DNA of 64,000 nt from Bacteroidales bacterium (GTDB lineage Bacteria > Bacteroidota > Bacteroidia > Bacteroidales > GCA-2748055): the NCBI GenBank assembly GCA_016936975.1, contig JAFGWU010000054.1, positions 1 to 64,000 on the forward strand. Reading direction: 5' to 3'. Below, in pieces: positions 55,273 to 58,337 of the stretch. How positions within the stretch are numbered: position 1 is the first letter of the stretch; the number at the start of each line of letters is the position of its first letter. A model generated the notes under the pieces. That model was not told the DNA's origin and made no database searches. It saw nothing but the letters and a program-made list of their open reading frames with translations. The translations under genes were made by a program, and so were the position numbers.

Positions 55273-56259
55273 ATGAAGTACAGAGTTGTTGCACTATTTC
55301 TGGGTTTATTTGCAGTCGGGTTTCTCTCTGCGCAAACCACCCTGACCGATGTAATTAATGAATTTAATGCAGGCGTTGAGTTCTTAAACAACCAGGAGTA
55401 TGATGGCGCATTGGGCCATTTCAATCAGACAATCGCCCTGGCAGACCAGGTTGGAGAAGAAGCCGCTGAAATGAAAACAAAGGCAGAGGATCAGATTCCA
55501 GCAACCTATTACAGGCAGGCCACTGTTTTCATGAAGAGAAAGCAATACGACAATGCTATTCCATTCCTGGAAAAGACTGTTGAATTTGCCTCCCTGTACA
55601 ATAATAATGAAGAGTTTAAAGATAAATCCCTGAAGTATCTTCCTTCGCTTTATGTGCTTGAAGGTAACAAGGCCTTGAAAAATGGAGGAAAGGAAAATGC
55701 TCTGGTTTATTTTGACAAAGCCCTTCAACTCAATCCTGATCTGTATCATGCACATCAAGGCAAAGGATTGGTTTACAAAGACCAGGAGGATACAGAAAAC
55801 ATGCTTGCAGCATTTGCTCAAGCCAAGGAAGGTGCCCGTGCAAAGGGCGACAATGAAACCATCGCAGAAATAAATGGCGTAATTGATGCCTATTTCAATA
55901 AATTTATCCTGGAAGAAATGGAACTGGTTGATCCGGAGGATAATGATTATACCTATGTGATTGAAGCATGCGATAAAGCTCTTGCAGCGAATAATCAGAA
56001 TCCCCGGGCATATTATCATCTCGCGTTGATCAAAAATAAAATGATCGAATATGATGCCGCCATCGAAAATGCACTGAAAGCACTTGAATTTGAAACAGAC
56101 CCGGTCTGGATTTCAGCGTTATATTATGAGCTTGGACATGCCTATCAGAATACTGTTGAGTATGACAAAGCCTGTGAATCCCTGAAAAAAGTATCCGAGG
56201 AACCGTTTAAGTCAAGAGCTGAAAAGAAGATGGGATCAATTCCCGGGTGCATTATGTAA
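55273..56259 (+). CDS. Secreted tetratricopeptide-repeat protein
   Basis: Protein of 328 aa with a signal peptide ending at FLSAQ, then several TPR-like helical pairs (for example GVEFLNNQEYDGALGHFNQTI near residue 38, KRKQYDNAIPFLEKTVEFA near residue 88, NALVYFDKALQLNPDLYHAHQGKGLVYKD region near residues 145-170, and AYYHLALIKNKMIEYDAAIENALKAL region near 245-275). It is probably periplasmic. It is a single-gene transcription unit with a consensus promoter and a strong terminator. Role unknown; TPR proteins commonly act as scaffolds. Confidence 0.82.
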   Translation: MKYRVVALFLGLFAVGFLSAQTTLTDVINEFNAGVEFLNNQEYDGALGHFNQTIALADQVGEEAAEMKTKAEDQIPATYYRQATVFMKRKQYDNAIPFLEKTVEFASLYNNNEEFKDKSLKYLPSLYVLEGNKALKNGGKENALVYFDKALQLNPDLYHAHQGKGLVYKDQEDTENMLAAFAQAKEGARAKGDNETIAEINGVIDAYFNKFILEEMELVDPEDNDYTYVIEACDKALAANNQNPRAYYHLALIKNKMIEYDAAIENALKALEFETDPVWISALYYELGHAYQNTVEYDKACESLKKVSEEPFKSRAEKKMGSIPGCIM

Positions 56260-56286
56260 GTGAATGCATCCAGACCTTATAATATG

Positions 56287-56314
56287 AAACAGCGGCAATT
56301 GTCGCTGTTTTTTT
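56287..56314 (+). terminator. Rho-independent terminator after the TPR gene
   Basis: AAACAGCG (56287-56294) pairs perfectly with CGCTGTTT (56303-56310) around an 8-nt loop and runs into T residues to 56314. It ends 27 bp after the stop codon and separates the TPR gene from metK. Confidence 0.88.
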
Positions 56315-56355
56315 GGAAATAACTGTGCAATTTGGTTTCTTTGTTCTTTCATTTG

Positions 56356-56407
56356 CCTGTGGAAAGATTTGTCTGATTGCAACCACGGAAAAAAATGCTA
56401 AAACAGT
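56356..56407 (+). promoter_or_regulatory. SAM-II-like riboswitch upstream of metK
   Basis: The region has the order of elements of the SAM-II pseudoknot: a P1 5' strand (GTGG, 56359-56362), GATTT, ATTGCAA (56376-56382), the P1 3' strand (CCAC, 56383-56386), an A-rich stretch and GCTAAA (56397-56402). The pseudoknot P2 can form between CTG (56373-56375) plus GC (56379-56380) and GC (56397-56398) plus CAG (56404-56406). Known SAM-II RNAs have the same elements with compensating bases in both stems. SAM-II senses S-adenosylmethionine, and metK makes it, so feedback control fits. The ATG is 62 nt beyond the element, farther than usual. A TAnnTTTG-like box (TTCATTTG, 56348-56355) ends directly before P1. 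Confidence 0.75.
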
Positions 56408-56468
56408 ATCTTCTTCCCGCTTTGTTCAGCCAGGTCTTTCTTAGTATTAATCCAATTAATCACCGAAA

Positions 56469-57725
56469 ATGTCTTATCTATTCACTTCAGAATCTGTATC
56501 GGAAGGTCATCCGGATAAAATTGCGGATCAGATTTCAGATGCACTCCTTGATGAATTCCTCGCTTATGACTCTGCCTCCAAAGTTGCATGCGAAACACTT
56601 GTTACAACCGGACAGGTTGTTCTGGCCGGAGAGGTACATTCCACCACCTATATTGATGTGCAAAAAATTGCAAGGGATGTTATTTGCTCTATAGGTTACA
56701 CCAAAAGCGAATACCAGTTTGAATGCAATTCGTGTGGTGTAATGACCATCATTCATGAACAATCTCCTGATATCAACAGGGGGGTTGACCGGAACGATCC
56801 CATGTTGCAAGGAGCCGGAGACCAGGGTATGATGTTTGGATACGCAAGCAACGAAACTGATGACTTTATGCCGCTTCCGCTGGAATTAAGCCACAGGATC
56901 TTAATGGAACTGGCATCCATCCGGAAGGAGAAGGAATTTATGACATACCTGCGACCCGATTCCAAGTCACAGGTCACCATAGAGTATGACGACCAGGATA
57001 ATCCCCTGAGGGTTCATACCGTTGTTCTTTCCACACAGCATGATGAGTTTGATCCCAATGATGAAAAGATGCTGAACACAATCAAGGAAGATGTTAAAAA
57101 TATACTATTGCCGAGGGTTATTAAAAAATTACCTGACCGGCTGCACTTTCTTTTCGACGATCATCTCATCCTGCATGTGAATCCCACCGGGAAATTTGTA
57201 ATTGGCGGACCGCACGGAGATACCGGTCTTACAGGGCGAAAGATTATTGTAGATACCTATGGCGGTAAAGGAGCGCACGGAGGAGGCGCTTTTTCCGGAA
57301 AAGATCCCTCCAAGGTAGACCGTTCGGGAGCTTACGCGGCCAGGCACATCGCAAAGAATCTTGTCGCCGCTGGTATTTCAGATGAGATCCTGGTCCAGAT
57401 CTCTTATGCAATCGGGGTGGTTGAGCCGATCGGAATTTATGTCAATACTTACGGGAAAGCCAGAGTCAATCTTACTGACGGTGAGATCGCTGAAAAAATC
57501 CGAAAAATTTATGATCTGAGGCCCGGTGCAATTGAAAAAAATCTGAAGCTGAGAAATCCCATTTACAGGGAAACAGCCTCATACGGTCATATGGGGAGAA
57601 CACCAAGGGTAGTTACCAAAATTTTCGATTCCCCTTACTGGGGTAAAAAAGAGGTTGAAGTTGAACTTTTTACATGGGAGAAACTCGATTATGTGGATGT
57701 TTTTAAAAATGCCTTTAATCTGTAA
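56469..57725 (+). CDS. metK: S-adenosylmethionine synthetase
   Basis: Makes S-adenosylmethionine from ATP and methionine. Signature segments are [21 protein letters not shown] near the N terminus, [12 protein letters not shown] (about residue 116), [21 protein letters not shown] and [27 protein letters not shown] in the C-terminal half. The length (418 aa) is in the range of this group, somewhat longer than the 384 aa of Escherichia coli. The gene follows the SAM-II-like element and is followed at 12 bp by riboflavin synthase. Confidence 0.97.
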
Positions 57726-57737
57726 ATTTGAATAACT

Positions 57738-58337
57738 ATGTTTTCAGGAATTGTTGAAGAAGCTGCAACCGTTGTCAGGTTGGAAAAAGAGCATGAGAAC
57801 CTGCACATTACCATGACCTGTTCGTTCACTGACGAGCTTAAAATCGATCAGAGCATATCCCATAACGGGGTATGTCTGACTGTTGTGAACATTGAGGAGA
57901 ATACCTACACGGTAACAGCAATTAAGGAGACCCTTCTGAAATCCAACCTTGGCCTGCTAAAAGTCGGGGATAAGGTAAACCTCGAACGAAGCACGCGGCT
58001 GGATGCCCGACTGGATGGTCATATGGTTCAGGGACATGTCGATCTGACGGCAACCTGTATACAGGTAAGGGAAGCTGAAGGAAGCTGGTACTACAAATTT
58101 GAGTATCAGCCGGTGAATGAAGAGCATCTGACCGTTGAGAAGGGTTCTGTCTCAGTGAATGGAGTAAGCCTGACCGTGGTAAATTCCGCTGACAGAAGTT
58201 TTGAGGTTGCAATTATTCCCTATACCTATGAGATTACCAACTTTCACCAGATCAAGCCGGGTACGGTAGTTAATATTGAGTTTGACATTATCGGGAAATA
58301 CATTGCAAAAATAGTGAAACAACAGCTGAATCGATAG
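57738..58337 (+). CDS. ribE: Riboflavin synthase alpha subunit
   Basis: Dismutates two 6,7-dimethyl-8-ribityllumazine to riboflavin. The two tandem lumazine-binding barrels are visible: the first starts MFSGIVEEAATVV and includes SISHNGVCLTVV, the second includes GHMVQGHVDLTATC and SVSVNGVSLTVV. The length of 199 aa is normal. It is 12 bp after metK; an FMN riboswitch is not seen in front. The gene probably depends on the metK promoter. Confidence 0.95.
   Translation: MFSGIVEEAATVVRLEKEHENLHITMTCSFTDELKIDQSISHNGVCLTVVNIEENTYTVTAIKETLLKSNLGLLKVGDKVNLERSTRLDARLDGHMVQGHVDLTATCIQVREAEGSWYYKFEYQPVNEEHLTVEKGSVSVNGVSLTVVNSADRSFEVAIIPYTYEITNFHQIKPGTVVNIEFDIIGKYIAKIVKQQLNR

Follow-up and report, generated by a model that had tools for sequence, protein, structure and literature searches.

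A SAM-II long-loop riboswitch upstream of metK in a Bacteroidales bacterium and a candidate anti-aptamer platform in the gap before the start codon

How could a SAM-II riboswitch control metK if the start codon of this gene lies well beyond the aptamer? This question is raised by the metK leader in a 64,000-nt stretch of DNA from a Bacteroidales bacterium (the whole stretch is referred to here as the window). Bacteroidota messages are naturally without Shine-Dalgarno (SD) sequences and the ribosomes of these organisms make no use of SD pairing (PMC6847099, PMC9976891); the textbook action of SAM-II, in which the SD is hidden, therefore cannot apply in this phylum.

The element itself, located on the forward strand at 56353-56411, is a SAM-II long-loop aptamer (RF01726). 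A cmscan search of the whole 64 kb window found RF01726 as the only match of any family above the gathering threshold (70 bits, cut-off 44; E 1.8e-11), well outside what chance would give, with an alignment that covers model positions 1-60 of 60. The initial annotation had proposed a SAM-II-like pseudoknot at 56356-56407, and each of its elements was found where it had been placed. P1 is formed by GTGG (56359-56362) and CCAC (56383-56386), and the H-type pseudoknot P2 is formed by CTG (56373-56375) with CAG (56404-56406) and by GC (56379-56380) with GC (56397-56398). The motifs GATTTG (56366-56371), ATTGCAA (56376-56382) and GCTAAA (56397-56402; GCUAAA in the RNA) are also present, such that the UUGCAA/GCUAAA core is complete both in the sequence and in the RF01726 alignment. 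The family suggested earlier for confirmation, RF00521, reached only 13.8 bits (cut-off 36) and was rejected; its sister model RF01726 is the correct assignment. The aptamer is a typical representative of an established family and would be expected to bind SAM.

The aptamer finding is ordinary: each of the 10 near-complete genomes in the family of the window carries RF01726, and among the Bacteroidales 214 of 295 genomes have a match that exceeds the cut-off. Over all 28 genomes of the family, 21 carried a match and metK was located downstream in each of these 21 (tblastn); the genome of the window has a single occurrence. Across the phylum, RF01726 was found in 41 of 296 sampled genomes. Many of the phylum-wide genomes carry long insertions between P1 and GCUAAA (leaders L257, L260, L261, L263, L265-L274 and L276), with matches that reach a span of approximately 117 nt compared to 60. 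Two contigs of metagenome-assembled genomes (MAGs), labelled Candidatus Rokubacteria (L051) and Chlorobiota (L024), nevertheless carry typical Bacteroidota metK leaders and are probably mis-binned or mislabelled.

The riboswitch is preceded by a gene encoding a TPR protein (55273-56259), and the terminator that had been proposed for this gene was confirmed by a terminator scan at 56291-56315 (+), with a stem at 56291-56309 followed by a T-run. The end of this T-run reads TTTG (56312-56315) and occupies the position expected for the -33 element in a Bacteroidota promoter, 20 nt upstream of a putative -7 box, TTTCTTTG (56336-56343, +), which was recognized by eye from the consensus TAnnTTTG and from relatives. 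This sigma-A consensus sits at -12 to -5 in Bacteroidota (PMC9723704), and a second candidate -7 box, TTCATTTG (56348-56355, +), was also identified by eye. From the first of these boxes, transcription is predicted to begin near 56348, some 11 nt ahead of P1. The order of terminator T-run, approximately 20 nt, CCTTTG and P1 recurs in relatives, and an overlap of the terminator with the metK promoter seems to exist in the window (56291-56343) and in several relatives among L002-L021. Downstream, metK, encoding S-adenosylmethionine synthetase, is located at 56469-57725 (+; TIGR01034, 502.9 bits, cut-off 309.4) and is followed after 12 nt by the riboflavin synthase gene ribE (57738-58337, +; NF006767, 218.2 bits). 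These two genes are possibly co-transcribed, in which case the riboswitch would act on ribE too.

As had been noted initially, 62 nt separate CAG from the metK ATG (56469). This distance had been regarded as unusual, a view that did not hold: among 227 parsed, non-identical Bacteroidota metK leaders, the ATG followed GCTAAA at a median distance of 70 nt (5th-95th percentile about 53-136), compared to 66 nt in the window. Direct occlusion would call for a ribosome binding site or start codon in or beside P2, and the ATG of the window lies 62 nt past CAG. Only 4 of the 227 leaders (L030, L067, L089 and L129, from Bacteroidales MAGs; RF01726 56-62 bits) had no gap. Here the metK ATG follows immediately after GCUAAA and the P2 3' strand (CAG) is missing; the aptamer AUG opens a reading frame, AUG-CUA-AAA-UGA, with a stop codon that overlaps the start of metK. 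In these four leaders, the metK start would be covered once the aptamer is bound, and direct occlusion is therefore possible in the phylum; it is also how SAM-II metX works (PMC10907184). An alternative reading for the window is classical SAM-II action, in which the pseudoknot alone hampers the loading of ribosomes and the gap serves as a neutral spacer. A neutral spacer, however, would not be expected to be conserved in length and to be complementary to the aptamer with covariation, as described below, and this explanation is considered very improbable.

The gap of the window contains a pyrimidine-rich segment (56421-56442, +) that can pair with the aptamer 5' half in a duplex of -19.3 kcal/mol (z -3.1, p 0.03). 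The 19 pairs join 56431-56441 with 56361-56371, 56426-56429 with 56373-56376 and 56422-56425 with 56379-56382, and the base opposite 56372 is mismatched. This helix is part of the minimum free energy (MFE) structure of 56356-56500 (-27.0 kcal/mol, z -2.19) and prevails in the ensemble, in which it accounts for 0.84 of the possible anti-aptamer pairs. Since it uses the 5' strands of both P1 and P2, the anti-aptamer helix excludes the SAM-binding fold.

Side-by-side comparison of leaders showed that the gap again and again carries the complement of the aptamer 5' half, even where the sequences differ. In many Flavobacteriia, the gap sequence GUCAAAUC(C/U)UUCC complements GGAARGAUUUGAC, while in the family of the window GAUCAGUCA complements UGACUGAUU; CAAUCA is found in the gap where the loop is UUUGAUUGAUUG and CUACUC where the loop is UUUGAGUAGCUUG. 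This complementarity was quantified in silico, as was all pairing described here, with ViennaRNA duplexes between the aptamer 5' half and the gap, expressed as z-scores against dinucleotide shuffles; the first 8 bases of the gap were dropped, and therefore the P2 3' strand cannot contribute to the signal. Over 223 leaders the mean z was -2.09, with 65% of leaders below -1.64, for duplex energies that ignore competition by P1, kinetics and co-transcriptional order, and Mg2+. The control targets, i.e., the promoter region and the aptamer 3' half, gave mean z-scores of -0.18 and -0.21. The result was replicated in 25 held-out leaders, previously unused and taken from a later phylum-wide search (mean z -2.26, 68% below -1.64, p 3e-8). 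By comparison, the signal was weak (mean z -0.94) in the 17 leaders of the loop group TTTGGCTGCTT (UUUGGCUGCUU), and the loop type UUUGGCUGCUU may work otherwise. A separate observation concerns a second RF01726 copy in the Bacteroidales genome G102 (L195, approximately 695-815), which precedes a putative metH-like open reading frame (ORF) and not metK; this ORF presumably encodes a methionine synthase, as recognized from its sequence. The anti-aptamer complement is found at this copy too (z -1.95, p 0.046).

Covariation was assessed by a swap test in which leaders with differing loops were matched to their nearest relative by MetK N-terminus, each leader entering a single pair, and the aptamer was combined either with its own gap or with that of its partner. 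The own gap was better in 71 and the partner's gap in 15 of 86 contrasts (p 3.5e-10), with a mean gain of 3.9 kcal/mol per pair of leaders; the leaders are interrelated, and the pair contrasts lessen but do not remove the effect of kinship on these numbers. A minority of contrasts ran in the contrary direction, including the nearest contrast of the window (L001/L002, whose loops differ). Controls with the reversed gap (50:36), with coding sequence in place of the gap (45:41) and with other targets, namely the promoter (48:38) or the aptamer 3' half (50:29), carried a small bias of up to approximately 0.9 kcal/mol, much below the signal, which was put down to composition. Single positions agreed with the swap test. 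The position preceding GATTTG and that following CAAATC combined as G-C (14) or A-T (20), compared to 10 combinations of the other kind (Fisher 6e-4). For the position following TTTG and that preceding CAAAT, 42 of 51 cases were A-T and 4 were G-C. Within-clade alignments, which are highly conserved and hold too few changes, showed no significant covariation, and RNAalifold on loose clusters, for which the alignments were poor, recovered the helix in 2 of 12. Two further pairings were considered. The segments flanking the anti-aptamer element showed no conserved pairing of the part before with the part after it (swap 51:46, not significant). An inner hairpin with the aptamer 3' half (GCUAAAG/CUUUAGC), visible by eye in some Flavobacteriia, was weak overall (z -0.44) and was rejected; the TTTAG of this hairpin was found in 15 leaders compared to 8.2 expected.

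Taken as a strand that undoes the aptamer when SAM is absent, 56421-56442 makes the gap an expression platform and not a spacer. The initial suspicion that the mode of action could differ from the masking of a nearby ribosome site is supported by the covarying anti-aptamer segment that the gap contains. The aptamer would be transcribed before the rest of the leader. With SAM bound, the pseudoknot (P1 and P2) would be retained, while in the absence of SAM the pyrimidine-rich segment, transcribed later, would invade the aptamer 5' half and dissolve both helices; this pairing is probably the way in which the switch flips. That SAM lowers metK is suggested by feedback logic and by the four leaders in which the ATG directly follows GCUAAA. 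The most likely reading of the locus, to which we assign a probability of roughly 0.7, is therefore a SAM-II long-loop riboswitch that lowers metK when SAM is plentiful, with the gap as its anti-aptamer platform and a translational output favoured.

For such a translational output, the SAM-bound state would free the segment or its flank, which would then mask the metK start region. This last step has partial support. A second-codon swap test of the gap against the start region favoured the own combination in 66 and the swapped one in 37 of 103 contrasts (p 0.003, Wilcoxon 5e-5), and its controls were null. Particular clades also offer suitable pairings: GGCAUUC pairs with GAAUGCC across the ATG in L063 and L100, GGCAUUU pairs with AAAUGCC in L110, and in a marine flavobacterial group UUGCUUUA pairs with UAAAGCAA around the anti-aptamer element, with the 3' arm just before the ATG. 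Apart from this swap test and these clades, tests of whether the anti-aptamer sequesters the start region in leaders at large were negative, and the general form was rejected: masking the anti-aptamer in silico opened the start region no more than control masks did, and the z-scores of the gap against the start region (-0.3) were similar to those of coding sequence controls. The only start-masking pairing on offer in the window is a weak alternative hairpin (56437-56468, +) in the MFE structure of 56408-56510, in which UUUC (56437-56440), located inside the anti-aptamer element, pairs with GAAA (56465-56468), which adjoins the ATG. This pairing would be possible when the anti-aptamer is free; the fold of the gap predicted for the SAM-bound state (56408-56510) is no stabler than shuffles (z +0.83).

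The same strand exchange could also act on transcription. A scan of 56200-56700 found no intrinsic terminator between P2 and metK, the only one being that of the upstream gene. A Rho-dependent output is possible because the gap is poor in G; in the SAM-bound state this pyrimidine-rich stretch would be freed and would load Rho before translation of metK starts, while without SAM it would be hidden in the hairpin. Ligand-exposed Rho sites are known in other riboswitches, according to the citation of Hollands 2012 in PMC10907184, and the lack of an intrinsic terminator in the gap is consistent with this output. The gaps had G and C contents of 0.108 and 0.214 compared to 0.149 and 0.157 in other leaders of the same contigs, and C minus G was higher even outside the anti-aptamer element (+0.064 vs +0.008, p 5e-11). 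The pyrimidine richness of the anti-aptamer, however, follows automatically from its pairing with a GA-rich strand, and outside this element C was not enriched (0.156 vs 0.157). A literature search for Rho data on Bacteroidota SAM-II metK leaders found none. Overall, Rho-dependent output is judged unlikely, and translational output stays the favoured end point.

The distance to the start codon could also be bridged by a standby site, as in Sinorhizobium meliloti metA, where ribosomes bind at a site within the aptamer region to supply a start codon 74 nt downstream and SAM hides this site (PMC9373788). An aptamer AUG with an A-rich 5' flank (AAAAAAAUGCUAAA) is indeed present in 208 of 223 leaders. 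The metA mechanism, however, relied on an SD sequence, which Bacteroidota messages naturally lack (PMC6847099), and an upstream ORF opened by the aptamer AUG, while frequent, was conserved neither in length nor in frame (mean rank 0.60 vs shuffles) and was rejected as a functional element. Distal standby in the window is accordingly hardly credible, and the exchange between anti-aptamer and aptamer is preferred as the explanation of the long gap.

Somewhat short of an even chance is given to the broader reading that Bacteroidota SAM-II riboswitches are a phylum-wide variant, in which a covarying anti-aptamer strand would pair with the aptamer in the absence of SAM (ON) and with the region of an SD-free start codon when SAM is bound (OFF). 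The anti-aptamer offers a concrete, mutable target for learning how riboswitches work in Bacteroidota, among which are major gut and marine bacteria. The aptamer class was already known, and what is added here is the proposed explanation of the gap as an anti-aptamer platform; a search of the open-access literature found no description of such a platform in Bacteroidota SAM-II.

SAM-II long loops (RF01726) were reported from Bacteroidetes in 2010 (Weinberg et al., PMC2864571), and the window shares with them the aptamer sequence, the layout of P1 and P2 and the phylum. The main-text sections of that report that list the motif leave its details to the supplement and describe no expression platform. 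The alphaproteobacterial SAM-II riboswitches, among which terminators occur (RF00521; Corbino et al. 2005, PMC1273637), share with the window the pseudoknot plan, the UUGCA and GCUAAA core and a transcription start that is predicted to lie a few nt upstream of P1, although the RF00521 model scores the sequence of the window far below its cut-off. With S. meliloti metA, where SAM-II acts over 74 nt, the window shares the long distance to the start codon that is used. S. meliloti metA and metZ use SD masking and intrinsic terminators, whereas the window has neither, but the metZ platform is predicted to change its structure upon SAM binding (PMC9373788), as is proposed here for the metK leader.
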